Origin: Kineothrix sp. IPX-CK
Lineage (GTDB): Bacteria; Bacillota; Clostridia; Lachnospirales; Lachnospiraceae
DNA length: 64,000 nt
Direction: 5' to 3'
Assembly (NCBI RefSeq): GCF_039134705.1
Contig: NZ_CP146256.1
Coordinates: 744,001-808,000, forward strand
Shown here: positions 5,578 to 20,765 of the stretch, one piece after another
How positions within the stretch are numbered: the stretch's first letter is position 1
Layout: each line of letters begins with the position of its first letter
The notes under the pieces: model-generated
Seen by the model: the letters and a program-made list of their open reading frames with translations, nothing else
What the model was told of the DNA's origin: nothing
Databases searched by the model: none
Made by a program: the position numbers and the translations under genes

Positions 5578-5578
5578 G

Positions 5579-6430
5579 TTGAAGAAACAAGCTTTTTATG
5601 CAAATAAGAAAAAATGGAACTTGGGAAAGCTGATGGGATTCCTTCTCACCTTTGGCATGGTTATTTTAGTATTGGTGCCTATTATATGGCTGTTTGTATC
5701 CTCCTTTAAGACAGACAGCGGAGTGATAGCCTATCCGCCTCACTTTTTTCCTACGGAGTGGACCTTTTCCCAATATCGATATGTGACTGAGAGCATTCCC
5801 ATCTTTTCAATGACCAAAACGACCATATTTTTTGCAGGAGGCGTGACCATATTGAGTGTCTTATTCGATTCGATGGCCGGTTATGCTTTTGCAAGATTAA
5901 ATTTTAGAGGCTCTAAGCTGCTTTTTTCCATTATATTGCTTACCATGATGGTTCCGTTCCAGATCATTATGACACCTCTCTATATTGAAATTTTTAAATT
6001 AAAGCTTTTGGATACTTATTTAGGACTGATTCTGCCCAGAGCTACCAGCGCTTTTGGTATTTATATGATGCGTTCGTTTTTTGCAGGTCTTCCGAAATCA
6101 CTTGAAGAATCCGGAAGAATAGAAGGAATGGGAGAATTCCGGATATTTCGCTCGCTGATGCTGCCGTTATGCAAGCCGGCGCTTATAAGTCTGGGTATCT
6201 TCCACTTTATGAATAATTGGAACGATTTACTTTATCCGCTGATGCTGACCAGTTCATCCGATAAAAGGACTTTATCGGCTGGCCTTGCGGTACTTGTAGG
6301 TAATAAAGTGATCAAATACGGGCCTACGCTTGCGGCGACCATGATATCCCTGATTCCTCTTCTGATTCTCTATCTGTTCTGCCAGAGATATTTTGTGGAG
6401 GGAATTGCCACGGCAGGGACAAAGGAATAA
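5579..6430 (+). CDS. Carbohydrate ABC transporter permease (MalG/UgpE type)
   Basis: A 283-residue partner permease with six membrane segments and the EAA motif EESGRIEGMGEFRIFRSLML. The start is taken as TTG 5579, one base after the stop of the upstream permease, because GAGGGGAGG lies at 5561-5570. A more upstream TTG in the same frame would overlap the previous gene by 41 bases without a ribosome site. Close coupling to the previous gene fits equal production of the two channel halves. Confidence 0.9.
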   Translation: MKKQAFYANKKKWNLGKLMGFLLTFGMVILVLVPIIWLFVSSFKTDSGVIAYPPHFFPTEWTFSQYRYVTESIPIFSMTKTTIFFAGGVTILSVLFDSMAGYAFARLNFRGSKLLFSIILLTMMVPFQIIMTPLYIEIFKLKLLDTYLGLILPRATSAFGIYMMRSFFAGLPKSLEESGRIEGMGEFRIFRSLMLPLCKPALISLGIFHFMNNWNDLLYPLMLTSSSDKRTLSAGLAVLVGNKVIKYGPTLAATMISLIPLLILYLFCQRYFVEGIATAGTKE

Positions 6431-6503
6431 AATGCGAAATCATGCTTACATAAAAGGCTGTGTCGCAAAAGTAAAAGATACTGAAAGGAGTATAGTTTTA
6501 AAC

Positions 6504-8012
6504 ATGAAAGCAACAGTAATCGTTAACAAAGATTTTAGTAAGGGGAAAATAGATAAGAGAATCTACAGCTCCTTTGTAGAACATATGGGTAGGGTGGTCT
6601 ATTCGGGAATCTATGAGCCGGGGCATAAAAGCGCAGACGAGGATGGCTTCCGGCAGGATGTACTTGAGAAGGTAAAAGAACTGGGAGTGACCGGAATTCG
6701 TTATCCGGGAGGTAATTTTGTATCCTGTTATGACTGGAGAGACGGAGTGGGTCCTGTAGAGAAACGTCCAAGGCGTCTGGAAATAGCCTGGAGAGCGATA
6801 GAGACTAATGAATTCGGCACCAACGAGTTCATGAAGTGGGCAAAAAAGGCGGGAATAGAGCCTATATTTGCCGTAAATCTCGGAACCAAGGGAATCGAAA
6901 ATGCAGTTTCCTTAGTGGAATACTGCAATATAAAAGGGGGAACCTTGTACAGCGATATGCGAAAAGGGCATGGCGTGGAAGAACCTTATGGAATAGGACT
7001 CTGGTGTCTGGGAAATGAAATGGACGGAGACTGGCAGATAGGACATAAGCAGGCAGAGGAATATGGACGTTTGGCGCAGGAAACGGCAAAGGCGATGAAG
7101 CAGGTGGACAGCAGCATTCAATTGGTATCCTGCGGAAGTTCCAAATCCGACATGCAGACATATCCCGACTGGGAAGCGACAACCTTAAACTATACCTATG
7201 ATTATGTAGATTACGTTTCGCTTCATCAATACTACGGAAATCAGGAAAAGGGGACGCCGTTTTTCCTGGCGCAGTCACTGGATATGGAGAACTATATTAA
7301 GACTGTGATTGGGACCTGTGATTTTGTAAAAGCGAAAAAGCGCTCGGAAAAGGAGTTGTATATCAGTTTCGACGAATGGGGAGTATGGTCCATTCCGGAT
7401 ACAGAGGTGGCATCGCAGGTGCATGAGGAGGCTTGGGAAGTGGCGCCCCACCTTAGTGAGCAGATTTATTCGCTGGAAGATTCCCTGCTTTTTGCAAGTA
7501 TGATGATGAACTTTCTGAAATATGCAGACCGTATTAAGGTTGCCTGTCAGTCATTGCTCACGAATATCAGTGCGGCAATCATGACAGAGCGTGGAGGAGA
7601 TGTATGGGTGCAGCCGGTTTTCTATCCTTTTTCATGGATGGCCGGATACGGACATGGAGAAGTGCTGCGGGATGTCCTGCACTGTCCGGCATATTTTTGT
7701 GACGGATTTGGTGAGGTTCCATATGTAGATGAGGTAACTGTTTATAATGAAGAAAAGAGAGAGGCCGTATTGTTTGCGGTAAATCGCGGCGAAGAGGAAG
7801 CGGTCTCGCTTACGGTCTGTCTTCAGGGGTTTGAACCGCAGAGAGTGACAGAACATCTGGCGCTAAGTCACCGGAACAAAAAGGCCACGAATCTTGTAAA
7901 TCATGAAGAAGTAAAGCCGTATCATGTAACGGATAACATACTGGAACGGGATGAGGTGATCTTAACTATGGAGCCGCTTTCCTTCCATATGATAAGGATA
8001 GAAGTGAAATAA
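6504..8012 (+). CDS. Alpha-L-arabinofuranosidase, glycoside hydrolase family 51
   Basis: A 502-residue intracellular enzyme that removes alpha-L-arabinofuranosyl residues from arabino-oligosaccharides. The ATG at 6504 follows AAAGGAG (6484-6490); the open frame extends further up but only through the previous gene's tail. Visible landmarks: GIRYPGGNFVSCYDWRDGVGP (about 64-84), the acid/base E172 in LWCLGNEMDGDWQIG, and the nucleophile E291 in ISFDEWGVW. A C-terminal beta-sandwich ends at LSFHMIRIE. Its placement after the importer genes suggests the imported substrate carries arabinose. Confidence 0.95.
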   Translation: MKATVIVNKDFSKGKIDKRIYSSFVEHMGRVVYSGIYEPGHKSADEDGFRQDVLEKVKELGVTGIRYPGGNFVSCYDWRDGVGPVEKRPRRLEIAWRAIETNEFGTNEFMKWAKKAGIEPIFAVNLGTKGIENAVSLVEYCNIKGGTLYSDMRKGHGVEEPYGIGLWCLGNEMDGDWQIGHKQAEEYGRLAQETAKAMKQVDSSIQLVSCGSSKSDMQTYPDWEATTLNYTYDYVDYVSLHQYYGNQEKGTPFFLAQSLDMENYIKTVIGTCDFVKAKKRSEKELYISFDEWGVWSIPDTEVASQVHEEAWEVAPHLSEQIYSLEDSLLFASMMMNFLKYADRIKVACQSLLTNISAAIMTERGGDVWVQPVFYPFSWMAGYGHGEVLRDVLHCPAYFCDGFGEVPYVDEVTVYNEEKREAVLFAVNRGEEEAVSLTVCLQGFEPQRVTEHLALSHRNKKATNLVNHEEVKPYHVTDNILERDEVILTMEPLSFHMIRIEVK

Positions 8013-8026
8013 AAGCAAAAGCATGA

Positions 8027-8053
8027 GTTACTGTGAAGGTCGTGAACAGTAAC
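8027..8053. repeat. Dispersed hairpin repeat, copy 1
   Basis: GTTACTGT and ACAGTAAC form a perfect 8-bp stem, with the text GTGAACAGTAAC on the right side. A near-identical element with GTTGCTGT...GTGAACAGTAAC occurs at 22064-22088. Both are intergenic. Confidence 0.6.
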
Positions 8054-8063
8054 CTTAAAGCCT

Positions 8064-8112
8064 GAGGCCGTAGTAAGATTCTCTAAAAGAATTTTTGCAA
8101 CGGCCTCTTTTT
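8064..8112 (+). terminator. Rho-independent terminator after the GH51 gene
   Basis: GAGGCCGT (8064-8071) pairs with ACGGCCTC (8100-8107), with an inner AGATTCT / AGAAT stem, and is followed by TTTTT. It ends the importer-arabinofuranosidase transcript. Confidence 0.85.
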
Positions 8113-8122
8113 ATGCTATACT
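8095..8122 (+). promoter_or_regulatory. Promoter for the LacI regulator gene
   Basis: TTGCAA at 8095-8100 and an extended -10, TGCTATACT (hexamer 8117-8122), are separated by 16 bases. The -35 overlaps the right arm of the preceding terminator. Confidence 0.6.
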
Positions 8123-8159
8123 CTAAGAAAGAATGAGCGTAATGGAGGTTCTGCCAAAG

Positions 8160-9161
8160 ATGGGAATTACAACGAAAGAACTTGCAAAAATATGCGGTGT
8201 TTCAAGAACCACAGTCCATCGGGCATTGACGGATACGGGAAGAATTAATCCGCAGACGAAGGACGCGATATTAAAGGCCGCCAAGGACTATGATTACAGA
8301 CCGGACCTTTTGGCGAGAGGGCTTGTAAAGGGACAGACCTTTTACATAGGAGTTATCGTGCTCGATGTGAATAACCGGTACTTTGCGCAAATGCTCAATG
8401 CTATTGAAATGGAAGCCAGAAAACACGGCTATTTTATTAATATCGCTCTGCATGAGAACAATAAAGCGATGGAAAAGGAACAGATAATAAGGCTGGCGGA
8501 TTACCGTGTGGATGGTATGATTCTTTCTTCTGTTAATCAGGGACAAGAGTATAAGGATTTTTTAAATAGCTTTGACATTCCTATTGTAACAATAGACAAT
8601 AAGGTTGCTGAGGGAATTCCCTTCGTTGGGATCAAGGAGAGGGAAGCCGCCAGAGAAGCAGTACGGCGGATATTGGAAAAAGGATATGAGAAGATGGTAT
8701 TCGTCTGCCCACCTCTTTCTGACCGCTATAAGGAAAATATTTATGTACATGAGCAGCGGCTTGAAGGCTTTAACGAGGCCATGCGTCAATATCCGGACAG
8801 GGAGGCAGTTGTTATTGATAAGAAAGATAACCTTAAGCTGTGTGCCGGCCAGCTGGAGGACTCGAAACGTACCGCCTTTTTCTGCTCCGGAGATATCTTC
8901 GCCCTTGAATTAATGAAATATTTGAAATCAAAAGGACTGGCCTCACCTGCGGATTATGGAATCATGGGTTTCGACAATATCGATACTCTGGAATACGTTA
9001 CCCCAAGGCTTTCAACTATTGATAATTCGGCAGAGCAGGTAGCCACCACTGCCGTGAATCTCCTTTTTGAATTAATTAATAAAGAAAAAACCGAGACGAA
9101 AAGGATATTGGATTTTGCTATAGTAGAGGGAGAAACCATAACTGCGCAGGCAGAGACATGA
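8160..9161 (+). CDS. LacI family transcriptional regulator
   Basis: A 333-residue regulator. Residues 1-55 are the LacI helix-turn-helix (TTKELAKICGVSRTTVHRAL) with hinge helix PDLLARGLVKG; the rest is a periplasmic-binding-protein-like effector domain (FYIGVIVLDVNNRYFAQML...). Of three in-frame ATGs (8133, 8142, 8160) the last fits GGAGG at 8144-8148 and the usual N terminus. It most likely represses the importer-GH51 operon through the palindromes at 3071 and 3155 and is released by an imported sugar. Target and effector are inferred from position. Confidence 0.9.
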   Translation: MGITTKELAKICGVSRTTVHRALTDTGRINPQTKDAILKAAKDYDYRPDLLARGLVKGQTFYIGVIVLDVNNRYFAQMLNAIEMEARKHGYFINIALHENNKAMEKEQIIRLADYRVDGMILSSVNQGQEYKDFLNSFDIPIVTIDNKVAEGIPFVGIKEREAAREAVRRILEKGYEKMVFVCPPLSDRYKENIYVHEQRLEGFNEAMRQYPDREAVVIDKKDNLKLCAGQLEDSKRTAFFCSGDIFALELMKYLKSKGLASPADYGIMGFDNIDTLEYVTPRLSTIDNSAEQVATTAVNLLFELINKEKTETKRILDFAIVEGETITAQAET

Positions 9162-9179
9162 TAAATGGGAGGAATGCAT

Positions 9180-9638
9180 ATGGATGAAGTTGACAGAAAA
9201 ATATTAATCGCGCTTAGGGAGAATTCCCGCCGATCGGCTACGGATATCAGTAAAAGGGTCAATCTTTCAGTTGCCGCTGTAATCGAACGGATTAATAAAA
9301 TGGAAAATATCGGGATTATTCAGCAGTATACGCTTGTTGTGAATCAGCATAAGATAGGAAACGATGTTATGGCGCTTATGGAGGTCAGTCTGGAACATCC
9401 CAAATATTATGACGAATTTACGGATAAAATGAAAAGCATGGAGGATATAGAAGCATGCCATTACGTTACGGGAGATTATGATTTTATGATTAAAATCAAT
9501 ACCCGCTCTTCGGAAGAACTGGAATTGCTGCACAGGAAAATAAAAAGTATTAGGGGAGTGTCTGGTACAAAAACATTTTTTGTATTGAAGGAGATAAAAA
9601 ACACTTTGGCTCCGGTTCCCGAAGTGAAAAAAATTTAG
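9180..9638 (+). CDS. Lrp/AsnC family transcriptional regulator
   Basis: A 152-residue protein with an N-terminal winged helix-turn-helix (VDRKILIALRENSRRSATDISKRVNLS) and a C-terminal RAM/Lrp ligand domain (QYTLVVNQHKIGNDVMALMEV, then HYVTGDYDFMIKI). Lrp proteins assemble as octamers and sense amino acids. ATG 9180 is 7 bases after GGGAGG (9167-9172). It starts 18 bases after the LacI gene and may share its transcript, but functionally it faces the amino acid operon that begins at 9894. A long AT-rich inverted repeat at 9686-9730 lies in that promoter. Control of the D-glutamate/5-oxoproline operon is therefore the best inference. Confidence 0.9.
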   Translation: MDEVDRKILIALRENSRRSATDISKRVNLSVAAVIERINKMENIGIIQQYTLVVNQHKIGNDVMALMEVSLEHPKYYDEFTDKMKSMEDIEACHYVTGDYDFMIKINTRSSEELELLHRKIKSIRGVSGTKTFFVLKEIKNTLAPVPEVKKI

Positions 9639-9685: not shown

Positions 9686-9730
9686 GTAAATATTTAAATA
9701 AATATTATCGTAATTTTTATAAATATTTAC
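9686..9730. promoter_or_regulatory. AT-rich inverted repeat, candidate Lrp operator
   Basis: GTAAATATTTA (9686-9696) and TAAATATTTAC (9720-9730) are perfect reverse complements, with centres 34 bases apart, about three helical turns. The pair lies just upstream of a -35 box at 9739 and downstream of an Lrp gene. Lrp proteins favour AT-rich, helically phased sites. Confidence 0.5.
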
Positions 9731-9738
9731 AAAAATTA

Positions 9739-9766
9739 TTGTCAGGGATATAATTACAATCATAAT
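9739..9766 (+). promoter_or_regulatory. Promoter for the D-glutamate/5-oxoproline operon
   Basis: TTGTCA at 9739-9744 and CATAAT at 9761-9766 have a 16-base spacer. The predicted start is near 9773, some 120 bases before the first gene. Other AT-rich hexamers nearby leave the exact position open. Confidence 0.5.
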
Positions 9767-9893: not shown

Positions 9894-10736
9894 ATGGAAA
9901 ATCTGGGATATTATAATGGAATATTTGGATTGATTGAAGAAATGGTGATCCCAATGAATGACAGAGTTCATTTTTTTGGTGATGGGGTATATGATGCAAC
10001 TTTCAGCGCAAATCATGTGGTTTATTTGATAGAAGAGCATATTGACCGTTTTTTTAACAGTGCGGAACAGATCAAAATCACTATTCCACATACAAAAGCA
10101 GAGGTAAAAGCTATTTTAGAGGAAATGGCAGCTATGGTGGAGGCGGAGGAATCGTTTGTCTATTGGCAGGTGACAAGAGGTACTGCGCCCAGGAATCATG
10201 CATTTCCGGACACAAAGGCAAATTTCTGGATCACAGTAACGCCCTTTGAACTGCGCAATATAAAGGAACGTATGGCATTGACGGCAATGGAAGATACAAG
10301 GCATCTTCATTGCAATATAAAGACACTGAATCTGCTGCCCAGTGTAATGGCTTCTCAGAAGGCATCTGAGGAGGAGTGTCAGGAAACAGTATTTTACAGG
10401 GGAGATATTGTGACTGAGTGTGCACACAGCAATGTATCTATATTAAAAGACGGGATGTTAAAAACGCATCCTAATGATCGATATATTTTACCGGGTATTG
10501 CGAAGTCGCATTTAATCATGGCCTGCAAGGCACTAAAGATACCGGTGGACGAAACAGCCTTTACGATGAGCGAAATGGAAGCGGCCGATGAAATTATTGT
10601 TACAAGCTCAAGCAATTTCTGCTCTGCGGTAAAAACGCTGAAGGGGAGACCGGTGGGCGGAAAAGCACCAAAGTTAATTGAGGTGATTCAGGATTATCTC
10701 GTTGCAGAATTCCGTGTTTACTGCGGGTTAGAGTGA
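9894..10736 (+). CDS. D-amino acid aminotransferase (class IV, PLP)
   Basis: A 280-residue fold-type IV PLP enzyme. The N terminus GYYNGIFGLIEEMVIPMNDRVHFFGDGVYDATF and the lysine motif CNIKTLNLLPSV (Schiff-base K143) follow the D-alanine aminotransferase pattern (CDIKSLNLL), not the branched-chain type; the cofactor-phosphate region ITVTSSSNF is near residue 240. The family exchanges the amino group between D-alanine or other D-amino acids and 2-oxoglutarate, making or using D-glutamate. It heads the operon with the two D-glutamate-cyclase-like proteins and PxpABC, so a link to the D-glutamate pool is plausible. Direction in the cell is unknown. Its stop overlaps an alternative GTG start of the next gene. 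Confidence 0.88.
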   Translation: MENLGYYNGIFGLIEEMVIPMNDRVHFFGDGVYDATFSANHVVYLIEEHIDRFFNSAEQIKITIPHTKAEVKAILEEMAAMVEAEESFVYWQVTRGTAPRNHAFPDTKANFWITVTPFELRNIKERMALTAMEDTRHLHCNIKTLNLLPSVMASQKASEEECQETVFYRGDIVTECAHSNVSILKDGMLKTHPNDRYILPGIAKSHLIMACKALKIPVDETAFTMSEMEAADEIIVTSSSNFCSAVKTLKGRPVGGKAPKLIEVIQDYLVAEFRVYCGLE

Positions 10737-10744
10737 GGTTGGCT

Positions 10745-11812
10745 ATGATTGCAGAAGAAGTGGCAGAATTAAACATCGGAGAAGACTTGGACCAGTTAAT
10801 CAATTTAGATCCCAGAGGCTACGGCGTTTGCAGAATCCTCTATAAAGGTACACGGGAATATATGGGAGAGCCTGCTGTCATGAAGTGTGCAAAAAAATTA
10901 CAAAATGTACTCAGACAGGAGGATATAGTGTACATTATTACCGGATTTGTTCTTTTGCCCCACAGGCATGCGGAGACAGACGGGATTATCGGAGCTATGC
11001 TGTTAGCGAGGATGCTTGTGAGGGCATATGGTGCAAAGCCTGTGATTATCTGCCCTGAGGAATGTAAGAATGCCGTGCAGAGTCTTTCCAGTGTTGTGGG
11101 TCTTCATCTGTATGATGGATACATGGAAATCAAAAGCATGCCGATTGCCGTAGGGCGTATTATCTTTACGAAGGAGGAAGAAAAAGCAGAAGAACAGGCA
11201 GCAGAAATTCTGCATGAGCTTCCTCCCAAAGCGGTAATTGCCATTGAGGCACCGGGGGCCAATTCAAAAGGAGTATACCATACGGCGAAGGGACTCGATG
11301 TGACGGAGCTGGAGGCAAAGACCGATGTTTTGTTCCGCAGGTGCAAGGAAGCGGGTGTTTTAAATATTGCAATAGGAGATCTGGGAAACGAATTGGGGAT
11401 GGGCACGCTGAAAAAGCATTTGCAAAAATATGTGCCTTACATGGAAGAAAACGGATGCGTTTGCGGATGCCAAGGCGGGTGTAGCGCTTCGGAGGCAGCA
11501 GATTACATAATAACCACGACCATATCCCATTGGGGCGCAGAGGCTCTTATCGCGGCTACCGCATGGCTGTTTAAACAGCCGGAGCTTATTCATGCCGGAG
11601 ATTTGGAAAAAGAGGCTATAAAGACAGCGTCTAACTGCGGCATGGTAGATATGTACGGCTGGGTGGATTATGCGATTGACGGAATAGGAATGGAGTTCCA
11701 TTTGTATCTGCTGGAGATTATGCGCCAATGTGTGGTGAATTCACTGCGTCATTTTACGATGTGCGGGGAATGGTTTGAAAAAGTTATCGATAAAAAATTC
11801 TTTGAGATATAA
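10745..11812 (+). CDS. DUF4392 protein, C-terminal half of D-glutamate cyclase (DGLUCY-like)
   Basis: A 355-residue cytoplasmic protein matching the DUF4392 domain, which forms the C-terminal half of the mitochondrial D-glutamate cyclase DGLUCY (C14orf159). Family landmarks are ITGFVLLPHRHAETDGIIGA (about residues 60-80), AIEAPGANSKGVYH, IGDLGNELGMGTLKK (about 215) and the SHWGAEALIAA stretch near 260. A Cys-rich CGCVCGCQGGC run before that could bind a metal; this is an observation, not a known site. DGLUCY converts D-glutamate to 5-oxo-D-proline. The other half (DUF1445) is encoded four genes away at 13569. ATG 10745 is preferred because GAGGT is just upstream; a GTG at 10733 overlapping the previous stop is the alternative. 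Confidence 0.82.
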   Translation: MIAEEVAELNIGEDLDQLINLDPRGYGVCRILYKGTREYMGEPAVMKCAKKLQNVLRQEDIVYIITGFVLLPHRHAETDGIIGAMLLARMLVRAYGAKPVIICPEECKNAVQSLSSVVGLHLYDGYMEIKSMPIAVGRIIFTKEEEKAEEQAAEILHELPPKAVIAIEAPGANSKGVYHTAKGLDVTELEAKTDVLFRRCKEAGVLNIAIGDLGNELGMGTLKKHLQKYVPYMEENGCVCGCQGGCSASEAADYIITTTISHWGAEALIAATAWLFKQPELIHAGDLEKEAIKTASNCGMVDMYGWVDYAIDGIGMEFHLYLLEIMRQCVVNSLRHFTMCGEWFEKVIDKKFFEI

Positions 11813-11840
11813 AGACTATGAAAAAAGCATGGGTATAAAT

Positions 11841-12557
11841 ATGGATGAAATAATTTTTTCGGCGGTAGGAGAACAGGGAATTGCCGTTTTGTTTGAACAG
11901 AAAATCAGTGAAGAGACAAACGGCAAGATCCGTTTTCTGATGGAGAAGCTGCGAAAAAGAAAAGAAATCCGGGAAATGATTCCGGCATTCTGCTCCCTGC
12001 TGGTATTCTATGATTGCCGGAAAATCAGCTATAGCAGAATGAAAAGAATCCTGGAAAAAGAAGCTGCCGGTCTTTTGGCGGTAAAGTCCGGTCAAAAGAA
12101 AATTCATATTATTCCGGTGTGCTACGGCGACACTTTTGGAGAGGATATTGGTTATGTTTCGGAATATACCGGGCTGAAAGAAGAGGAAATTATACGGCTT
12201 CACTGTGGACGGGATTATCTGATCTATATGTTAGGATTTCTTCCTGGATTTGCTTATCTGGGGGGACTGGATGAACGTATTTTCTGTCCCAGGCTGGAAA
12301 GTCCGAGAACGCGTATTATGGCAGGCAGTATTGGTATAGGGGGAGAGCAGACGGGAATTTATCCTCTGGACTCTCCGGGAGGATGGCGGTTGATTGGAAA
12401 AACGCCCCTGCGGCCCTATGATGTACACCGCAATCCACCTATTTTGTATAAAATGGGGGATTATATCCGTTTTCAGTCTGTTACAAGGGATGAGTATGAT
12501 GAGATTTCGGCAAAAGTGGAACAGGGGATATATAGGCACCGTTATATAACGCAATGA
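11841..12557 (+). CDS. pxpB: 5-oxoprolinase subunit PxpB (KipI family)
   Basis: A 238-residue protein of the allophanate-hydrolase-subunit-1/KipI family. The conserved block YMLGFLPGFAYLGGLDERI, then GSIGIGGEQTGIYPL and SPGGWRLIGKTP, lies in the C-terminal two thirds. With PxpA and PxpC it forms the ATP-dependent 5-oxoprolinase that opens 5-oxo-L-proline to L-glutamate; PxpB and PxpC together probably carry the ATP-dependent activation. The frame runs back to a TTG at 11775 inside the previous gene. ATG 11841 gives the usual family N terminus, and ATG 11829 is an alternative; neither has a strong ribosome site, suggesting translational coupling to the gene before. Confidence 0.9.
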   Translation: MDEIIFSAVGEQGIAVLFEQKISEETNGKIRFLMEKLRKRKEIREMIPAFCSLLVFYDCRKISYSRMKRILEKEAAGLLAVKSGQKKIHIIPVCYGDTFGEDIGYVSEYTGLKEEEIIRLHCGRDYLIYMLGFLPGFAYLGGLDERIFCPRLESPRTRIMAGSIGIGGEQTGIYPLDSPGGWRLIGKTPLRPYDVHRNPPILYKMGDYIRFQSVTRDEYDEISAKVEQGIYRHRYITQ

Positions 12558-12570
12558 AGAGGAGGCTCGT

Positions 12571-13572
12571 ATGGACAAACGGATACAGTTGGATGTTTTG
12601 GAACCGGGACTGATGACAACAGTACAGGATGCGGGCAGATACGGCTATCAGGCAAGTGGTTTTTCCGTCTCCGGATGCATGGACCTAAATGCTATGCAGG
12701 AAGCTAATTTCCTGTTGAATAATCCGGTGGGAGAAGCTGTTTTGGAAATGATTTACATGGGCGGCACTTTCCGCTTTTCTTGTGATACTTTTTTTTCTCT
12801 TACGGGAGCCGATATGTCTCCGCTTTTGAATGAAAAGGAAATCCCTTGTTATCAGGCAATACAAGCAAAGGCCGGAGATCTGTTAAGATGTCGTACAGCC
12901 CGAAACGGCAGGTATGGATATCTTTCCGTGGCAGGAGGATTTCTGATTTCCGAGGTACTTGGAAGCAAGTCGACTCATCTAAAATGTGCAGTAGGAGGCT
13001 TTCGGGGCAGAAAGCTGGAGAAGGGGGATATTCTTCTTCTGTGTACAGAGACAAAGCGTCTGTTAAATCTAGAACAAAAGGAAATCTTTCACGGTGATTA
13101 TCTTCCGGAAATAAACGTCCGTGTGGTTCCCGGTCCGCAGTATGGCCATTTTACTGAGGAAGGGATACGGACATTCGGGAACGAAAAATATGTTGTTTCG
13201 GGGGAATCTGACCGAATGGGATATCGGCTGGAAGGACCAGCCGTCAGTTGCCGTGATAAAGCCGATATCATATCTGACGGAATCGCAGAGGGCTCTGTTC
13301 AGGTTCCTTCCGGTGGAAAGCCAATGGTTTTGCTGGCCGACCGTCAGACCACTGGAGGGTATGCCAAAATAGGAACGGTGATTGCGGTTGATCTGCCTCA
13401 GCTCGTGCAGTGTATGCCGGGCACCGCCGTGCGTTTTTCCTGGGTGACGGTAGAAGAAGCACAAGTCTTATACCGGAAAGATAAGAGAGAGAAGAGACGT
13501 ATGATGAGACGGACAGGGTACTGTCCTCAAAATATGGGTTATTTAGAAAGAATACGCAGGGGGAGCTTATGA
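12571..13572 (+). CDS. pxpC: 5-oxoprolinase subunit PxpC (KipA / biotin-dependent carboxyltransferase family)
   Basis: A 333-residue protein. It opens with [36 protein letters not shown], the characteristic start of the allophanate-hydrolase-subunit-2/KipA family, and includes [11 protein letters not shown] and [46 protein letters not shown]. It has no biotin attachment domain, as expected for PxpC. It follows pxpB by 13 bases after GAAGAGGAGG and overlaps the next gene by 4 bases (ATGA). A basic tail ([14 protein letters not shown]) near residue 310 extends beyond the usual core. Confidence 0.93.
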
Positions 13573-14354
13573 AGAATAGTTTGATATCGCCGGCGAGTGT
13601 GCGTTTGCAAATTAGGGAGGGAAAGCTGAAAGAACCTACTTCCGGACTTTGCCCGGGCTATGCGCAAGCAAATCTGGTAGTGCTGCCTCAAAAGTATGCA
13701 TATGACTTTTTGTTATTCGCACAGAGGAATCCAAAGCCCTGTCCACTTTTGGAGGTTAGCGATACCGGGAGCAGATTTTTGAAAAAAATTGCATACAATG
13801 CGGATATAGCAACGGATATTCCGAAATACCGTGTTTATGAAAATGGCAAATTAACAGGTGAATATTTGGACATAGTTCCGTTCTGGCGTGATGATCTTGT
13901 AAGCTTCCTGATTGGCTGCAGCTTTTCTTTTGAATCGGAGCTGACAGGGGCGGGAATTGAGATGCGTCATAACACGGAACATTGCAATGTGCCAATGTAC
14001 CTGACAAATATCCCTTGTGTTCCGGCGGGATCGTTTCACGGTAATATGGTCGTGAGTATGAGACCTATTCCCTATGAGCAGGTAGTGAAGGCGGTAACTG
14101 TGACATCTGCAATACCCAGAGTGCATGGAGCGCCGGTACATATAGGCTGTCCGGAAGCAATTGGAATTGGCAGTTTGGATCAGCCTGATTTCGGGGATGC
14201 GGTAACGGTGAAAGAAGGAGAAGTTCCTGCATTCTGGGCATGCGGCGTAACACCCCAGGCTGCGGTTATGGCTTCCGGGACAGAGTTTTGTATTACGCAT
14301 GCACCGGGACATATGCTGATTACGGATATGAAAAATATTTGTTTAAAAGAATAG
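13569..14354 (+). CDS. DUF1445 protein, N-terminal half of D-glutamate cyclase (DGLUCY-like)
   Basis: A 261-residue protein of the 'putative hydro-lyase' DUF1445 family. It has the typical phrases [38 protein letters not shown] (about 52-70), [18 protein letters not shown] (about 137-154), [13 protein letters not shown] and [16 protein letters not shown]. The same phrases occur in the N-terminal half of animal DGLUCY, whose C-terminal half is DUF4392, encoded here at 10745. It overlaps pxpC by 4 bases and precedes pxpA by 10, so it is embedded among the oxoprolinase subunits. The likely role is in D-glutamate cyclisation to 5-oxoproline, alone or with DUF4392; bacterial function is inferred. 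Confidence 0.87.
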
Positions 14355-14364
14355 GTGGAATATT

Positions 14365-15129
14365 ATGAACAGGATTGATTTGAATTGTGACTTGGGAGAG
14401 AGCTTCGGCACCTACATAATAGGAATGGATGAACGCGTGATTCCGCTCATTTCATCTGCTAACATTGCTTGCGGCTTTCATGCCTCAGACCCTCTCGTGA
14501 TGTCAAATACGGTGGTTTTGTGTAAAAAATACGGTGTCGCTGTTGGTGCGCATCCCGGATTTCCGGATTTGTCCGGTTTCGGCCGGCGCAATATGAACGT
14601 TTCTTTGGCGGAGGCAAAAACAATGGTACAGTATCAAATCGGAGCCTTAGATGCATTCTGCCAATCCGAGAAGATAACGCTGCAGCATGTAAAGCTCCAC
14701 GGGGCTTTGTACAATATGGCCGGCAAAGACTATGAGCTGGCGAGAGCTGTCTGCGAAGGCGTCCGTGCGGTGAACAGGGATTTGGTCATGCTTGTATTGG
14801 CGGGAAGCCAGATGAAGAAGGCGGCAGACGATCTTGGTATGAAGGCAGCGGAAGAAGTTTTCGCTGACAGAGCCTATGAGGAGGATGGATCTCTGGTGGC
14901 AAGAGCAAAGCCCGGAGCAATGATCACAGATGAGAAGTTTGCAATTGAAAGAGTGCTTACAATGGTGCTGGAACATAGGGTGACATCGGCAAGTGGCAGG
15001 AAAATACCGATCAATGCAGATAGTGTGTGTGTCCACGGAGACGGAGAGAAGGCATTTGTCTTTGCTAAGAGTCTTAGGAAGGCACTTGAAGAGAGTGGGA
15101 TTAACGTATGTGCTTTTGGTACACCCTAA
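14365..15129 (+). CDS. pxpA: 5-oxoprolinase subunit PxpA (LamB/YcsF family)
   Basis: A 254-residue protein of the LamB/YcsF family: IDLNCDLGESFGTYIIGMD at the start, then SSANIACGFHASDP, VGAHPGFPDLSGFGRRNM, LQHVKLHGALYNMA and, near the end, ADSVCVHGDGEKA. PxpA contributes the deacetylase-like barrel of the 5-oxoprolinase and carries the metal-site histidines and acids in these motifs. Length is standard (about 250). It closes the operon begun at 9894; a promoter and a leader hairpin for the next unit follow within 120 bases. Confidence 0.95.
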   Translation: MNRIDLNCDLGESFGTYIIGMDERVIPLISSANIACGFHASDPLVMSNTVVLCKKYGVAVGAHPGFPDLSGFGRRNMNVSLAEAKTMVQYQIGALDAFCQSEKITLQHVKLHGALYNMAGKDYELARAVCEGVRAVNRDLVMLVLAGSQMKKAADDLGMKAAEEVFADRAYEEDGSLVARAKPGAMITDEKFAIERVLTMVLEHRVTSASGRKIPINADSVCVHGDGEKAFVFAKSLRKALEESGINVCAFGTP

Positions 15130-15245: not shown

Positions 15246-15297
15246 GTGTAATTAAGAAAGTGCGCCTATCATGAAAAGTTCAGCGGGGGAACAAAAT

Positions 15298-15927
15298 ATG
15301 GAAAGATTTGTGATTGCGATTACGAGAACGTGCGGGAGCGGAGGAACTACGATCAGCAAGCAGCTGGCGGCGCATTATGGTATTGATATGTATGACAGAA
15401 ATTTGCTTCGTCTTGCTTCGGAGGACAGCGGAATCAATGAGGAACTGTTCGCGAGAGTGGAGGAGAGTACCAGAAACAAGTTGCTGTATAAGGTGTCAAG
15501 AAAAGTATATAACGGGGAACTGATATCCCCGGAGAGCAATGACTTTGTGTCTGATCAGAACTTGTTCAATTACCAGGCAAAGGTCTTAAAGGAACTTGCC
15601 GAGAGAGAATCCTATGTCTGTGTAGGAAGGGCTTGTGATTATGTTTTGAAGGATTTTTCCAATGTTCTTAAAGTATTTATCTGTGCTTCGGATGATGTCT
15701 GTATTAGCCGGGAAATGGAACGGCAGGGAATATCCCGGAAAGAAGCGGAAAAATATGTTTCAAAAAATAACAAATACCGCAAGGAGTATTATAAGTATCA
15801 CACCGGGCGGATATGGGAGAGTCCCTGCAATTATGACTTATGTATTAATACTGGTGAGCTGACTTATGAGCAGAGTGCCGACACCATTAAAGAAATTATA
15901 CGAATGAAGTATCATGTCATGCGGTAG
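15298..15927 (+). CDS. Cytidylate kinase-like family protein
   Basis: A 209-residue protein of the AAK_13/cytidylate-kinase-like family, common in Clostridia. The P-loop-like start FVIAITRTCGSGGTTISKQLA lacks the usual GK(S/T) lysine, as in other members, and is followed by GIDMYDRNLLRLAS and YVCVGRACDYVL. True cytidylate kinase activity is therefore doubtful. ATG 15298 is set by GGGGGA at 15284-15289; an upstream ATG at 15271 has no ribosome site. It precedes livK by 84 bases with no terminator between, so it may be the first gene of the importer transcript. The function of this family in transport operons is not known. Confidence 0.82.
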   Translation: MERFVIAITRTCGSGGTTISKQLAAHYGIDMYDRNLLRLASEDSGINEELFARVEESTRNKLLYKVSRKVYNGELISPESNDFVSDQNLFNYQAKVLKELAERESYVCVGRACDYVLKDFSNVLKVFICASDDVCISREMERQGISRKEAEKYVSKNNKYRKEYYKYHTGRIWESPCNYDLCINTGELTYEQSADTIKEIIRMKYHVMR

Positions 15928-16011
15928 TCGCGGGAGCGGCCATGGTACCATAAAAAGATAAATCCGCTAATAGGAGCGATTTATATAAAATAATTGAGGA
16001 GGATTCAGTAT

Positions 16012-17238
16012 ATGAAGAAAAAAGTGTTAAGCTTACTGCTTTGCGCAACAATAGCCGGAACACTGCTGAGCGGCTGCGGTTCTGAAGCTTCAAGCGTGTC
16101 CGGTACCGGAGAAGTGGCAGAGTCGGGAACAAAAGAAGAGGACGCTGAAAAAAGCGCTCCCGCAGGAGAAGAAGATAAAGTGATAAGAATCGGCGTAATT
16201 TGTTCTATGACAGGCGGTTCGGCTATTTATGGCGAAGGTGCTCAGAATGCTGTTACAATGGCTGCAGAGGAGATCAACAGCAGCGACAGTGAGATTAAGG
16301 TGGAGATACTAAACGGCGGCAAGGTTGTCGATGATGCCAGTGATTCCAAGCAGGCAGTCAACGCCTATAACAGTCTTGAGCCCGAGGCGCCCGAAGCTGT
16401 AGTTGGTGCATTTTTCTCTTCCGTTACACTTCCGATGGCAGAACTGGCAAACGAGCAGGGAATGCTTCTGATGGCGACTGGAGCGACGAACTATAAGGTC
16501 ACTCAAGTTGGTCCTACAATATTCAGAGACTGTTTTATAGATCCGTATCAGGGTAAAATGGCGGCAGCGTTTGCCAAAGAGCAGGGGGTCAGCAAAGCAG
16601 CGATTATTTATGCGAAGGATGACGACTATTCCAACGGATTGAAGGATGCATTTGTAGAAAATGCGGAAGCTGCGGGCATTGAAATTGCATACACCGGAGA
16701 ATGCACCACAAAGGATACCGATTTTACTGCTCAGGTTTCCCAGGCAGTAGCCTCCGGGGCAGATTACCTGTTTTACCCATGCTTTCTGGATACTGTTCCT
16801 CTTCTGGTTCAACAGGCAAGGGATGCAGGCTTTGAAGGTATCATTATGGGTGGAGACGGATGGGATGGTTCCGATACGACTGGACTGGAAACCTATTTTG
16901 ACAATTGCTATTTTACGAACCATTATTCTTCTGAGGATACCTCGGAAGCAGTTCAGTCCTTTGTTACAAAATATACCGATACATATGGCGTTGAAAGCTT
17001 AAACGCATGTGCTGCACTTTACTACGATGCCATTTATATGCTGGTACAGGCGGCTGAACAGGGCGGAGGAACTGACACTGCTTCCCTCGTCAGCGGAATG
17101 ACAGGTATTACCTTTACCGGAGTAGGTGGAACCTTCACGCTTGATGAAAACGGCGATCCCGCTAAGAGCGTTGCAATTAATACATATGAAAATGGTGCTG
17201 TTAAGTGGTATAAGACACTTTCTCCTGAAGGAAATTAA
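16012..17238 (+). CDS. livK: Branched-chain-type amino acid ABC transporter binding lipoprotein
   Basis: A 408-residue lipoprotein with lipobox LSGC (Cys near residue 22), an acidic linker, and a type I periplasmic-binding fold opening with VIRIGVICSMTGGSAIYGEGAQNAVTMAAEEIN. AGGAGG (15997-16002) fixes the ATG at 16012. It feeds LivH-LivM-LivG-LivF encoded directly downstream. Liv-type binding proteins take leucine/isoleucine/valine but also many other amino acids, amides and short peptides. Given the neighbouring 5-oxoproline and D-glutamate operon, a glutamate-related ligand is possible but only inferred. A strong stem-loop follows the stop. Confidence 0.93.
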   Translation: MKKKVLSLLLCATIAGTLLSGCGSEASSVSGTGEVAESGTKEEDAEKSAPAGEEDKVIRIGVICSMTGGSAIYGEGAQNAVTMAAEEINSSDSEIKVEILNGGKVVDDASDSKQAVNAYNSLEPEAPEAVVGAFFSSVTLPMAELANEQGMLLMATGATNYKVTQVGPTIFRDCFIDPYQGKMAAAFAKEQGVSKAAIIYAKDDDYSNGLKDAFVENAEAAGIEIAYTGECTTKDTDFTAQVSQAVASGADYLFYPCFLDTVPLLVQQARDAGFEGIIMGGDGWDGSDTTGLETYFDNCYFTNHYSSEDTSEAVQSFVTKYTDTYGVESLNACAALYYDAIYMLVQAAEQGGGTDTASLVSGMTGITFTGVGGTFTLDENGDPAKSVAINTYENGAVKWYKTLSPEGN

Positions 17239-17269
17239 TAATGGATAACAATATTCACAGGTAACAGGA

Positions 17270-17303
17270 AGTAAAGGCATAAGCGGAAACTTATGCCTTT
17301 ACT
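17270..17303 (+). other. Stem-loop between livK and livH
   Basis: AGTAAAGGCATAAG (17270-17283) and CTTATGCCTTTACT (17290-17303) form a perfect 14-bp stem with a 6-base loop CGGAAA. No U-tract follows (ATATCAAAC). It matches the position and style of the hairpin at 4551, suggesting stabilisation of the binding-protein mRNA. Confidence 0.8.
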
Positions 17304-17357
17304 ATATCAAACAACCCTCAGACTGCGGGAATATAGAACGAAAGGAAGTGCAGGTAA

Positions 17358-18245
17358 GTGTCCTTATTTATACAAAGTATCATAAACGGGCTTAACCAGG
17401 GTGCCATTTACGCATTGATAGCACTGGGCTACACAATGGTATACGGTATTATCCGCATGATTAATTTTGCTCATGGAGACTTTATCATGGTCGGAGCGTA
17501 TTCGCTGTTTTATACGGTGCCCCTGATGATTAATTACGGTATGCCGGCATGGATGGCGGTCATAATTGCCATTGCGGTCTGCGTTACAGTAGGCGTTGCG
17601 GTAGAAATCATCGCATATAGGCCTGTGAGAGGAGCAGGTTCCATGTCTGCATTAATTACAGCACTGGCAATGAGCCTGTTTTTGGAGAATCTCGCCATGG
17701 TATTGTTCGGCGCTAATCCGAAATCCGTTCCGGCTATTTTTACGCTGCCTTCTATTGAGGTATTGGGAGCAAAATTGCAGTGGAAATATTTGCTGACGAT
17801 AAGTATAGGTATAATAATGATGGTGGGGCTGCAGCTGTTTGTAAAGAAAACAAAGCTTGGGAAGGCGATGCGTGCGGTGCCGCAGGATAAGGAAGCCTCG
17901 ACTCTGATGGGCATCAATGTAAATAAAATTATTACAACGACCTTCGCCATCGGTTCCGGGCTCGCAGCGGTAGCGGCACTTATGTACTGCTCAACTTATC
18001 CGAGATGTACGACGGATATGGGTTCCATGATGGGGCTTAAGGCATTTATAGCGGCTGTTTTGGGCGGTATCGGGAGCATACCGGGAGCTATGGTAGGAGG
18101 TATTATCGTGGGGCTGGTTGAGATTTTTGTAAAAGTCTATATCGCTCCGGGCTGGTATGAGGCAATCACATACAGTCTTTTAATTTTTGTTTTATTGATT
18201 AAGCCGACCGGCATTATGGGTAAGAATGCCGGAGAGAAAGTGTAG
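17358..18245 (+). CDS. livH: Amino acid ABC transporter permease LivH
   Basis: A 295-residue membrane protein with about eight hydrophobic segments. The start FIQSIINGLNQGAIYALIALGYTMVYGIIRMINFAHGDFIMVGAY is the LivH signature, and the ATPase-docking loop includes GKAMRAVPQDKEASTLMGINVNKII (about 170-195). GTG 17358 is used as start; AAGGAAG is upstream and no better ATG exists before the first membrane segment. It pairs with LivM to form the channel. Confidence 0.93.
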   Translation: MSLFIQSIINGLNQGAIYALIALGYTMVYGIIRMINFAHGDFIMVGAYSLFYTVPLMINYGMPAWMAVIIAIAVCVTVGVAVEIIAYRPVRGAGSMSALITALAMSLFLENLAMVLFGANPKSVPAIFTLPSIEVLGAKLQWKYLLTISIGIIMMVGLQLFVKKTKLGKAMRAVPQDKEASTLMGINVNKIITTTFAIGSGLAAVAALMYCSTYPRCTTDMGSMMGLKAFIAAVLGGIGSIPGAMVGGIIVGLVEIFVKVYIAPGWYEAITYSLLIFVLLIKPTGIMGKNAGEKV

Positions 18246-19268
18246 GTGAGCTGGATGCCAAAAAGCAAAAAATTATCTTATATTATAAATGTGATCGGTA
18301 TTCTGGTGTTGTTCATAGGTCTGTACGGCTTGTTCCAGTCGAATGTATTAGGCACCAGGACATCTTACATTAAAGGTATTTTTACTACGGCCTGTTATAC
18401 GATTATTCTGGTGACTTCCTTAAACCTCCTGGTGGGATTTATGGGTGAATTTTCTCTTGGTCATGCGGGATTTATGTCGGTGGGCGCCTATGCTTCTGCT
18501 ATTTTGACCAATTCGCTTTATGACTACGGGATGCCGAAGCTTTTGCTGTTTATCATTGCGCTTCTTGTCGGAGGAGCCGCAGCCGCATGTATGGGTGTCC
18601 TTGTGGGCATACCGGCGCTCAGACTGAGAGGCGACTATCTCGCTATTGTAACAGTAGCCTTTGCGGAAATTATCCGGGTTGCATTTTGTAATTTTGCAGT
18701 TACCGGTTCCGGGCGTACTATGAGCGGTATTGCCAAGCTTTCGGATTTTTACTGGTGCTACTGGGCTATGGTGATCTGTGTTGCAGTGATGTATATGTAT
18801 ACCCGCTCCCGCTTCGGCAGGACAGTCATTGCCATAAGGGAAGATTATATTGCAGCCAGTGCAAGCGGAATTAATGTTACATATTATAAGGTGCTGAACT
18901 TTACGATTTCAGCTTTTTTTGCGGGAATCGGGGGAGCGATGTACGCGCATTATATGACGGCGATGATCCCCACTAATTTTAACTTCATGTATTCTGCGGA
19001 AATGCTGACGGAGGTTATAATCGGCGGCACCGGCTCTCTAACCGGTTCGATTATCGGAGCGGCTTTTCTATCGGCACTGCCCGAGGCCATGCGTCAGTTT
19101 TCTATTTACCGGATACTGGCTTATTCCGTTGTCCTTGTATTAGTCATGATTTTCAAGCCGGGAGGAATCTTCGGCACATGGGAGTTCTCCCTTACCAGAC
19201 TGATTGGAAAGGTTGCAGCCTTTATAAAAGCCCCTCATGCCAGAAAAGGAGGAAATGCCTATGAGTAA
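18246..19268 (+). CDS. livM: Amino acid ABC transporter permease LivM
   Basis: A 340-residue membrane protein of the LivM family: NLLVGFMGEFSLGHAGFMSVGAYASAIL (about 62-90) and the docking loop GRTVIAIREDYIAASASGINVTYYKVL (about 192-218). The GTG at 18246 directly abuts the livH stop; ATG 18255 in frame, just after AGGTGAG, is an equally good start. The 3' end overlaps livG by 8 bases, indicating translational coupling. Confidence 0.92.
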   Translation: MSWMPKSKKLSYIINVIGILVLFIGLYGLFQSNVLGTRTSYIKGIFTTACYTIILVTSLNLLVGFMGEFSLGHAGFMSVGAYASAILTNSLYDYGMPKLLLFIIALLVGGAAAACMGVLVGIPALRLRGDYLAIVTVAFAEIIRVAFCNFAVTGSGRTMSGIAKLSDFYWCYWAMVICVAVMYMYTRSRFGRTVIAIREDYIAASASGINVTYYKVLNFTISAFFAGIGGAMYAHYMTAMIPTNFNFMYSAEMLTEVIIGGTGSLTGSIIGAAFLSALPEAMRQFSIYRILAYSVVLVLVMIFKPGGIFGTWEFSLTRLIGKVAAFIKAPHARKGGNAYE

Positions 19269-20067
19269 GGAAATAAAAGAGGTACCGGTCTTAAGAGTAC
19301 AGAATCTGGGAATTACCTTTGGCGGCCTGAAAGCGGTCGATTCATTTAGCATTGACATTGGGAAAAGTGAGTTTGTTGGATTGATCGGTCCCAATGGTGC
19401 CGGAAAAACTACGGTGTTTAATCTTCTTACGGGTGTGTATATGCCGACAGAAGGATCTTTTTATCTCGAAGGTCAGAAGATGAATGGGAAGAAAACACAT
19501 CAGGTAGTGGCAGCCGGAATATCCAGAACCTTTCAGAATATCCGTTTGTTTAAAAAAATGACGGTAATTGAAAATGTAATGGTCACAATGAATATGCATA
19601 TGTCTTATTCGCTTGTCTCATCAATCTTCAGGCTTCCCAAGTATTGGAAACAAGAAGAAGAAGCAAGGAAGAAGGCATTAGAGTTATTGGATATTGTCAA
19701 TTTAAAGGATAAAGCGGATATTACAGCCGAAAATCTTCCGTATGGGCAGCAGAGGAGATTGGAAATTGCCAGAGCATTGGGAACGGGAATGAAGCTTCTT
19801 CTTTTAGACGAACCGGCTGCGGGAATGAATCCTACCGAGACCTCGGAGCTGTTAGATATCATCAATGTTATCCGTACAAAATTTAATATTTCCATTCTTT
19901 TGATCGAGCATGATATGAGCCTTGTCATGAAGGTATGTGAGAGGATACAGGTCATTGATTATGGAGTAACGATCGCTTCCGGCACACCGGAGGAGATTGC
20001 GAATAATCCGAAAGTGATTGAGGCATATCTTGGGAAGGATGAAGAGGAAGGGGTGGCACTATGTTAG
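19261..20067 (+). CDS. livG: Amino acid ABC transporter ATPase LivG
   Basis: A 268-residue ATP-binding subunit: Walker A GPNGAGKT, Q-loop in ISRTFQNIRLF, signature PYGQQRRLEIARAL, Walker B LLLLDEPAAGMNPTE, and switch His in LLIEHDMSLV. The LivG-specific insertion after the Q loop (MTVIENVMVTMNMHMSYS...) is present. ATG 19261 lies 8 bases after AAAGGAGG. The gene overlaps livM and livF at its two ends, so the five genes form one transcript. Confidence 0.95.
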   Translation: MSKEIKEVPVLRVQNLGITFGGLKAVDSFSIDIGKSEFVGLIGPNGAGKTTVFNLLTGVYMPTEGSFYLEGQKMNGKKTHQVVAAGISRTFQNIRLFKKMTVIENVMVTMNMHMSYSLVSSIFRLPKYWKQEEEARKKALELLDIVNLKDKADITAENLPYGQQRRLEIARALGTGMKLLLLDEPAAGMNPTETSELLDIINVIRTKFNISILLIEHDMSLVMKVCERIQVIDYGVTIASGTPEEIANNPKVIEAYLGKDEEEGVALC

Positions 20068-20765
20068 AGTTAAAGGATTTGAACGTAAGCTATGGCGCTA
20101 TCCATGCTATCTATGATGTCAGCCTGACTGTGAATGACGGAGAGATTGTTTCGTTGATTGGAGCGAACGGTGCGGGAAAAACAACAATCCTTCATACGAT
20201 TACCGGGTTAAAGAAATCCATGAATGGCAGCATCGTATATAACGGAAACGACCTGACTAAAATAGAGCCCAGTAAAATTATTACGCTGGGCATGGCCCAT
20301 GTCCCCGAGGGACGCCATATCTTTCCGGCAATGACGGTAGGAGAAAATCTGGAGATGGGAGCTTATATCAGAAATGATAAGGACGGTATTCAAACGTCAG
20401 TGAAAGAAGTATTTGAAAGGTTTCCGAGATTAAAGGAGAGAAGAAAGCAGCTTGCGGGAACGCTGTCAGGAGGCGAACAGCAGATGCTTGCTGTAGGACG
20501 CGCGCTGATGAGCAGACCGAATATCATTTTAATGGATGAGCCGTCCATGGGACTTTCTCCTCTTCTTGTAAAAGAAATATTTAATATCATTAAGGAAGTG
20601 CATAAGCAGGGAATCACGGTTCTGCTTGTGGAACAGAATGCTAAAATGGCATTATCCATAGCAGATAGGGCATACGTTTTGGAAACAGGGCATATTTCCA
20701 TGAGCGGGGAAGCAAAAGAACTGCTTAACGATGAAAAAGTCAAAAAGGCATATCTTGGATTATGA
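20061..20765 (+). CDS. livF: Amino acid ABC transporter ATPase LivF
   Basis: A 234-residue ATPase with Walker A GANGAGKT, the LivF phrase MAHVPEGRHIFPAMTVGENLEMGAY, signature LSGGEQQMLAVGRAL, Walker B IILMDEPSMGLSP and LLVEQNAKMAL. It starts within the last codons of livG (7-base overlap). Its 3' end overlaps the convergent yeiH-like gene by 26 bases, so no terminator can lie between them. Confidence 0.95.
   Translation: MLELKDLNVSYGAIHAIYDVSLTVNDGEIVSLIGANGAGKTTILHTITGLKKSMNGSIVYNGNDLTKIEPSKIITLGMAHVPEGRHIFPAMTVGENLEMGAYIRNDKDGIQTSVKEVFERFPRLKERRKQLAGTLSGGEQQMLAVGRALMSRPNIILMDEPSMGLSPLLVKEIFNIIKEVHKQGITVLLVEQNAKMALSIADRAYVLETGHISMSGEAKELLNDEKVKKAYLGL

Follow-up and report, generated by a model that had tools for sequence, protein, structure and literature searches.

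The window analyzed here, a 64,000-nucleotide stretch of Kineothrix sp. IPX-CK (positions 744001–808000 of a genome that forms one contig of 4.72 megabases), contains an operon of six genes on the forward strand that likely joins D-glutamate and 5-oxoproline metabolism (Table 1). The genes encode, in order, a D-amino-acid aminotransferase, a DUF4392 protein, the 5-oxoprolinase subunits PxpB and PxpC, a DUF1445 protein and PxpA. Open reading frames (ORFs) and Pfam matches confirm this order, which an original prediction on this DNA had listed, and the Pfam scores of all six genes are far above the cut-offs. The longest ORFs for DUF4392 and pxpB span 10733–11812 and 11775–12557, the latter opening at a TTG and overlapping DUF4392 by 38 bases. 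Alignment with relatives places the DUF4392 start at the in-frame ATG at 10745, which leaves a gap of 8 bases after the aminotransferase gene, and pxpB has candidate ATG starts at 11829 and 11841, with gaps of 16 or 28 bases after DUF4392. With these ATG starts, and with the other junctions showing gaps of 13 and 10 bases and one 4-base overlap, the predicted spacing of 30 bases or less throughout holds. The window genome has one match each to DUF4392, DUF1445 and the racemase MurI, carries a second class IV aminotransferase elsewhere, and has no alanine racemase (Alr) gene beside the operon.

Table 1. Operon genes and flanking features (coordinates within the window)
Feature	Coordinates	Strand	Evidence
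D-amino-acid aminotransferase (pyridoxal phosphate (PLP) class IV), proposed to produce or consume D-glutamate	9894..10736	+	PF01063 Aminotran_4, 125.7 bits
DUF4392 protein, proposed Mn-dependent D-glutamate cyclase	10745..11812 (ORF open from GTG 10733)	+	PF14336 GLUCM-like_C, 292.4 bits
PxpB, 5-oxoprolinase subunit	11829..12557 (start 11829 or 11841)	+	PF02682 CT_C_D, 229 bits
PxpC, 5-oxoprolinase subunit	12571..13572	+	PF02626 CT_A_B, 287.2 bits
DUF1445 protein (YcsI family), proposed to act on 5-oxoproline	13569..14354	+	PF07286 D-Glu_cyclase, 226.2 bits
PxpA, 5-oxoprolinase subunit	14365..15129	+	PF03746 LamB_YcsF, 338.6 bits
Lrp/AsnC-type regulator, candidate operon regulator	9165..9638	+	PF01037, PF13404
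Promoter-like site TTTACA-17-TATAAT, between the Lrp-type regulator and aminotransferase genes	9726..9754	+	Consensus scan
Cytidylate-kinase-like gene, recurrent neighbor	15271..15927	+	PF13189
Liv-type ATP-binding cassette (ABC) transporter (binding protein, two permeases, two ATPases), candidate importer	15994..20765	+	Pfam and ORF reading

The operon is conserved across species

A DUF4392 alignment was scanned against one genome per species, giving 259 relatives, from which the best 80 loci by similarity were retained; these come from species other than that of the window, are related to one another and in some cases lie on short contigs. PxpB is present in 74 of the 80 loci, the aminotransferase in 72, PxpC in 71, DUF1445 in 69 and PxpA in 65, and 57 contain all six genes, with several of the missing genes corresponding to contig ends. 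The gene order of the window recurs in 44 loci, 24 with Alr next and 20 without it, and an alternative order, aminotransferase–DUF4392–DUF1445–PxpA–(Alr)–PxpB–PxpC, is found in 13. The six-gene arrangement is thus almost certainly a conserved functional unit. DUF1445 is missing from 11 of the 80 loci, and five of the nine such genomes that were searched carry it elsewhere.

Clustering of the neighboring genes revealed one widely recurrent extra family, present at 36 of the 80 loci, with the next clusters reaching no more than five. This family is alanine racemase, its gene oriented like the operon and, in most cases, no more than tens of bases away; a single representative, from locus L096, was scanned with TIGR00492 (374.1 bits, cut-off 168), and the others were assigned by similarity to it. 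Score limits were set ad hoc (150 bits for Alr, for example), and a looser search returned 37 Alr loci instead of 36.

Two further observations concern individual loci. At L062, which holds the nearest relative of the window DUF4392 among the 80, the DUF1445 gene is in two ORF pieces, which a genuine frameshift or a fault in the assembly could explain. At three loci (L108, L130 and L131), a DUF4392 gene of the close type is an orphan: aminotransferase and pxp genes are absent from the locus, and the genome gives no match to DUF1445.

DUF1445 and DUF4392 are associated but separable

To examine the association of the two proteins, we used an even sample of 398 genomes across the phylum, in which drafts split operons and for which the p-values ignore kinship. 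DUF4392 occurs in 39 of these genomes (38 over the cut-off) and DUF1445 in 62; 29 contain both, compared with 6.1 expected (Fisher p 1e-18, which is too small given that the genomes are related), excluding the case, set beforehand as a test, that the two do not co-occur beyond the window genome. Two of the 46 DUF4392 match rows are below the cut-off: that of G221, still counted among the 39 and the 29, and G033:C3, which was excluded from the adjacency counts. The two genes lie within 3 kilobases (kb) of each other on one strand in 16 of the 29 genomes (17 before the G033 match was removed). The predicted link of both proteins to 5-oxoprolinase is borne out by pxpA, which is present in all 29 genomes with both proteins, compared with 3 of the 10 with DUF4392 only (Fisher p 8e-6). 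In eight of the 29, pxpA is separate from the DUF1445–DUF4392 pair, at 13 kb on one contig in G022, far off on one contig in G284, and on other contigs in G028, G059, G068, G096, G304 and G323.

Natural fusions also join the two domains. A search with a joined query listed 120 rows, 79 of which contain both domains, a proportion that is not a frequency because the query favors fusions. DUF1445 comes first in 11 and DUF4392 in 13 of 24 aligned fusions. Single rows additionally show PxpC fused to DUF1445 and DUF1445 fused to the later portion of PxpB. In six of the 120 rows (P0122, P0123, P0127, P0131, P0133 and P0140; 864–945 residues), one chain unites DUF4392 and DUF1445 with a MurD-like Mur ligase; the four that were scanned have the order DUF4392–Mur–DUF1445 and contain only the first two Mur domains, the last being absent, and three scanned with TIGR01087 (murD) scored 183–186 bits, under the cut-off of 212 but above the other Mur models. 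These triple fusions would link the DUF1445–DUF4392 pair to D-glutamate or peptidoglycan synthesis.

DUF1445 also occurs with pxp genes apart from DUF4392. Neighborhoods were viewed in 26 of the 33 genomes that have DUF1445 without a DUF4392 match, and, overall, 40 loci have DUF1445 with no DUF4392 nearby. At least two pxp genes are present in 33 of these 40, of which 21 are in genomes without any DUF4392 match and 12 in genomes with DUF4392 elsewhere. None of the 33 contains the aminotransferase or Alr. By comparison, 73 loci combine DUF1445 and DUF4392 with two or more pxp genes, and of these 66 contain the aminotransferase and 33 contain Alr. Within the phylum sample alone, the aminotransferase is present in 4 of 6 loci with DUF4392 and 0 of 33 without it (p 0.0002), the four standing for two or three lineages, and the association therefore does not depend on the selected 80 loci alone. 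Most simply, DUF1445 would be part of 5-oxoproline use and DUF4392 would bring in D-glutamate, the aminotransferase product.

As DUF1445 accompanies pxp genes in these 33 loci apart from DUF4392, the two proteins probably act at separate steps. The alternative is that they form two halves of one D-glutamate cyclase and perform a single joint step, after which PxpABC or another enzyme opens the D-lactam. Fusions in both orders and in animals would suit this arrangement, as would the tight gene pairs of eight sampled genomes, in which 57–83 bases separate the domain matches. We consider it unlikely, given the 33 DUF1445–pxp loci, 21 of them in genomes without DUF4392, and the occurrence of DUF4392 without DUF1445 in 10 of 39 genomes; moreover, reopening the D-lactam to D-glutamate would be a futile cycle. 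The original prediction that the two proteins act together is therefore upheld as far as their linkage goes, through the excess of genomes with both and the two fusion orders, but not as an obligate two-piece cyclase.

DUF4392 conserves its metal ligands across two clades

The six metal ligands of the DUF4392 protein TON_0340 map to E81, D83, E172, D216, E220 and D316 of the window protein (numbered from the 10733 ORF), and each is at 1.00 across 121 rows. The window protein also contains a CxCxC motif at residues 242–246. Of 101 rows of the window's clade (a set that includes rows from the 80 loci outside the tree), 76 have this CxCxC insert with GG after it, as do 0 of 19 rows of the short clade; the insert could be a metal or redox site of the long form.

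In a tree of 80 DUF4392 rows (quick search, midpoint-rooted; 22 of the 80 operon loci left after thinning), a branch with 99% support in the Shimodaira–Hasegawa-like approximate likelihood-ratio test (SH-aLRT) splits 36 rows from 44. On the smaller side are the fusion rows of the tree, 17 in number, together with all eight DUF1445–DUF4392 pairs, five operon copies of the short DUF4392 and six solitary genes; the larger contains the window, the 22 operons left after thinning, two further operons and 19 solitary genes. The window DUF4392 is thus across this branch from all 17 fusion rows and outside the clade of DGLUCY-type fusions, which speaks against the wording of the original prediction, a split DGLUCY; fish DGLUCY (P0240) was lost at domain extraction, and the vertebrate-type row P0229 stood in for it. 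Solitary genes of the window's clade have recurrent neighbors of their own, including DctM-type transporter genes and, at L153 (7413–9167, checked with Pfam), a gamma-glutamyltranspeptidase gene, with a similar gene at L154, L155 and L158.

The operons with short-form DUF4392 (L183, L185–L187 and L193, with L187 cut by a contig end) carry the same partner genes. The DUF1445 proteins of L185–L187 and L193 fall within a 99%-supported set of 31 rows that includes 19 window-type rows, seven fusions and one PxpC fusion, in a DUF1445 tree (also quick and midpoint-rooted) that shows eight changes in association with DUF4392. That one kind of operon is served by two deeply separated DUF4392 forms argues for both having the same role.

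The partner enzymes and DUF1445

The closest relatives of the aminotransferase in the PDB are the D-amino-acid aminotransferase entries 3daa/1daa (E 9e-52). Its R100 and H102, aligned with the R-x-H of 3daa, are present in 77 of 77 rows, and K143 is kept in at least 95%; we take R-x-H to be the carboxylate trap and the K143 position to be the catalytic lysine of the 3daa/1daa enzyme. An exact motif common to the aminotransferases, RG[TS]xPRxH, was tried and rejected, as it matched only 6 of 76 rows, R and H being invariant only when scored per column. PxpB exceeds the TIGR00370 cut-off (192.2 versus 145.55 bits), PxpC that of the domain model TIGR00724 (284.4 versus 230.2), and PxpA that of NF003814 (361.8 versus 226); PxpA is also over the cut-off of the subfamily model NF003816 and under those of three equivalogs.

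The window DUF1445 scores 412.4 bits against NF003969 (cut-off 324), and its residues C58, C117, C225, R165, H186 and T228 are conserved in 154 of 154 rows, with six further rows set apart; in the two vertebrate-type rows, leucine replaces C58. The invariant cysteines were considered as a racemase signature, which is a guess, the fold comparison described below having listed no racemase. The AlphaFold2 model of the protein has a predicted local distance difference test (pLDDT) score of 90.9. A PDB profile search with an alignment that includes fusion rows (A4) gave strong E-values only for 3db9 and 2pif, and for TON_0340 entries via the fusion rows.

Flanking genes

The Lrp-type regulator gene ends 255 bases 5′ of the aminotransferase gene. 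The promoter-like site between them matches the consensus at 11 of 12 positions and is weak evidence, because the region has 20 such sites compared with 14.8 expected. Terminator-like sites on the plus strand up to position 16100 are found only inside pxpC, and the cytidylate-kinase-like gene and the Liv-type transporter may therefore share the operon transcript. Pfam identified the binding protein and first permease of this transporter, and the remaining three components were read from ORFs. Among the 80 loci, an Lrp-like gene (any score) occurs in 15, the kinase-like gene in 16, and relatives of the Liv binding protein, first permease and second permease in 16, 15 and 17, respectively, the transporter and kinase-like genes having belonged to the query set for these counts. 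The genes at 5537–9161, 5′ of the operon, were read by eye as a sugar-type ABC permease, an arabinofuranosidase-like protein and a LacI-type regulator, and seem unrelated.

A proposed route from D-glutamate to L-glutamate

The model that we propose starts from what was observed, namely which genes are present and how far they are conserved, their co-occurrence and fusions, and the conserved Cys residues and metal ligands; from these we infer reactions, direction and stereochemistry. The operon would be a D-amino-acid salvage unit that converts D-glutamate to L-glutamate through a lactam; as a whole, we give this a little less than an even chance of being right. The aminotransferase, with alanine racemase where present, would pass the amino groups of D-alanine (from Alr or peptidoglycan) and other D-amino acids to 2-oxoglutarate, yielding D-glutamate, which might also come straight from peptidoglycan. 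DUF4392, as a di-manganese enzyme, would close D-glutamate to 5-oxo-D-proline, and its role as the D-glutamate-cyclizing enzyme is fairly probable. DUF1445 would then act on 5-oxoproline. Its most economical role would be inversion of 5-oxo-D-proline to 5-oxo-L-proline, the least certain step and one that, on its own, we regard as possible but doubtful; in the lactam the amino group is acylated, which would make the alpha proton easier to remove, by the same logic as in the N-acetyl route of DgcN–DgcA. PxpABC would finally open 5-oxo-L-proline to L-glutamate with ATP, so that the route would be one-way. The fullest version of this proposal is a shade more doubtful than the inversion step: DUF1445 as a PLP-independent 5-oxoproline epimerase and DUF4392 alone as the D-glutamate cyclase would, together with their MurD-, PxpB- and PxpC-fused relatives, constitute an undescribed lactam inversion route, and the DUF1445 half of the animal fusion would have lost or changed its activity.

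Several points weigh against this model. DGLUCY, which holds both domains, is said in one report to be stereospecific, and this, like the product reported for it below, argues against inversion by DUF1445. The 12 DUF1445–pxp loci whose genomes hold DUF4392 elsewhere do not fit it easily, and the window operon has no Alr while its genome has MurI, so a cheaper racemase route exists there. A racemase fold (of the MurI, DapF or proline racemase type) was absent among the 50 listed VIA-align entries for the DUF1445 model, a result compatible with a shared fold. The best NCBIfam model for the aminotransferase, TIGR01121 (D-amino-acid transaminase), gives 225.6 bits, under its equivalog cut-off of 277.45, and PxpC reaches 249.6 bits with the equivalog NF045499, under its cut-off of 500. 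Passages of the literature report that DGLUCY gives 5-oxo-D-proline with no L-glutamate peak (PMC5339696), which the leucine at C58 in the vertebrate-type rows may or may not explain, and describe TON_0340 as a weak phosphatase (PMC5132392).

The route could instead run in reverse, from 5-oxoproline to D-glutamate (or to 2-oxoglutarate and alanine), with DUF1445 giving the D-lactam and DUF4392 opening it to D-glutamate for peptidoglycan or for the aminotransferase and Alr. Consistent with this, 8 of the 29 genomes with both proteins lack a MurI over the cut-off, compared with 26 of 369 others (p 0.0015), and there are the fusions with a truncated MurD. The sampled genomes are related and mostly drafts, however, four of the eight MurI-less genomes have a congener with MurI (G360 for G246 and G326, G096 for G323, G223 for G244), the window genome itself has MurI, and the lactam is favored at equilibrium; we consider this direction improbable. 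The other four genomes with both proteins and no MurI over the cut-off are G022, G028, G068 and G033, for which no MurI-bearing congener was noticed in the table. The operon as a MurI replacement was rejected for the window, where the genome has MurI, and is possible for a few other genomes.

Improbable to much the same degree is a different substrate, another five-carbon D-amino acid or lactam handled by the same chemistry. In its favor are the solitary DUF4392 genes, the majority from the window's clade, that have tripartite ATP-independent periplasmic (TRAP) transporters, malic enzyme, a beta-eliminating lyase and an alanine-racemase-like gene as neighbors, and the equivalog scores of the aminotransferase and PxpC. 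Against it, PxpA (subfamily model) and PxpB pass their NCBIfam cut-offs, the R-x-H of the aminotransferase is invariant, and the animal relative is reported to act on D-glutamate (passages of PMC5339696). Least probable is that DUF4392 works as a Mn-dependent phosphatase, the activity described for TON_0340, and is accessory to the ATP-using 5-oxoprolinase: its Mn ligands are conserved and passages of PMC5132392 report weak AMP phosphatase activity, but the kcat/KM given there is just 1.9 x 10^2 per M per s, and 33 pxp loci lack DUF4392.

Identification of the mammalian D-glutamate cyclase gene dates from 2017, and which of its two domains does the chemistry is not settled in the parts of the literature surveyed. 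Operons with separate domain genes, exchange between deep clades and genes for neighboring steps make this domain question testable on single-domain proteins. If the proposed route from D-glutamate to L-glutamate is true, Clostridia have an ATP-driven way of converting peptidoglycan D-glutamate to L-glutamate, and there is a function for DUF1445, which is labelled a ‘putative hydro-lyase’ and often lies beside pxpABC.

Comparison with known systems

The closest comparison is animal DGLUCY (9030617O03Rik / C14orf159; passages of PMC5339696), a DUF1445–DUF4392 fusion described in that source and in PMC5132392. Both domains are over their Pfam cut-offs in the window, and the metal ligands (by eye) and the C117 and C225 positions of DUF1445 are kept. 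Unlike DGLUCY, the window has two genes, in an operon with the aminotransferase and PxpABC, and its DUF4392 is of a different deep clade; the vertebrate-type rows also differ in the leucine at C58. TON_0340 (PDB 4dwz, 5gl2; passages of PMC5132392) is likewise a DUF4392 protein with all six metal-binding acids, but is archaeal and described as a phosphatase, and its close relative 4fc5 has a gap at the CxCxC insert.

Among 14 control genomes, DUF1445 was found in one, B. subtilis, and DUF4392 in none, so that the B. subtilis pxp operon, unlike that of the window, is in a genome without DUF4392. This operon, with ycsG and ycsI, is reportedly described in Niehaus 2017 and presumably lacks a D-amino-acid aminotransferase. 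Its likeness to the window is the presence of DUF1445 (ycsI) with pxpABC (passages of PMC10448178).

The DgcN–DgcA system differs from the proposed route in how the alpha carbon would be acidified, by an N-acetyl group there and by the internal lactam here. Inversion of N-acetyl-glutamate by DgcN–DgcA is said to be the subject of Yu 2023, and we take its families to be unrelated to those of the window operon. The passages available describe it as a route from D-glutamate to L-glutamate (PMC10845958) and as an irreversible, costly racemization of D-glutamate (PMC12363236), resembling in both respects the conversion proposed for the window operon.

A table in PMC11580864 lists six split and zero full-length gut homologs of GLUCM_HUMAN; the passages seen of that source mention neither an operon nor a pathway, and assign no steps. 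The protein collection searched in this analysis does contain full-length bacterial DUF1445–DUF4392 fusions. Among the matches listed from the open-licence literature, none described an operon of DUF4392, pxp genes and a D-amino-acid aminotransferase (with or without Alr), an assignment of steps or a 5-oxoproline racemase. DUF1445 beside pxpABC, the animal fusion and the split gut homologs were thus known, and what appears to be new is a combination of families that predicts a pathway.

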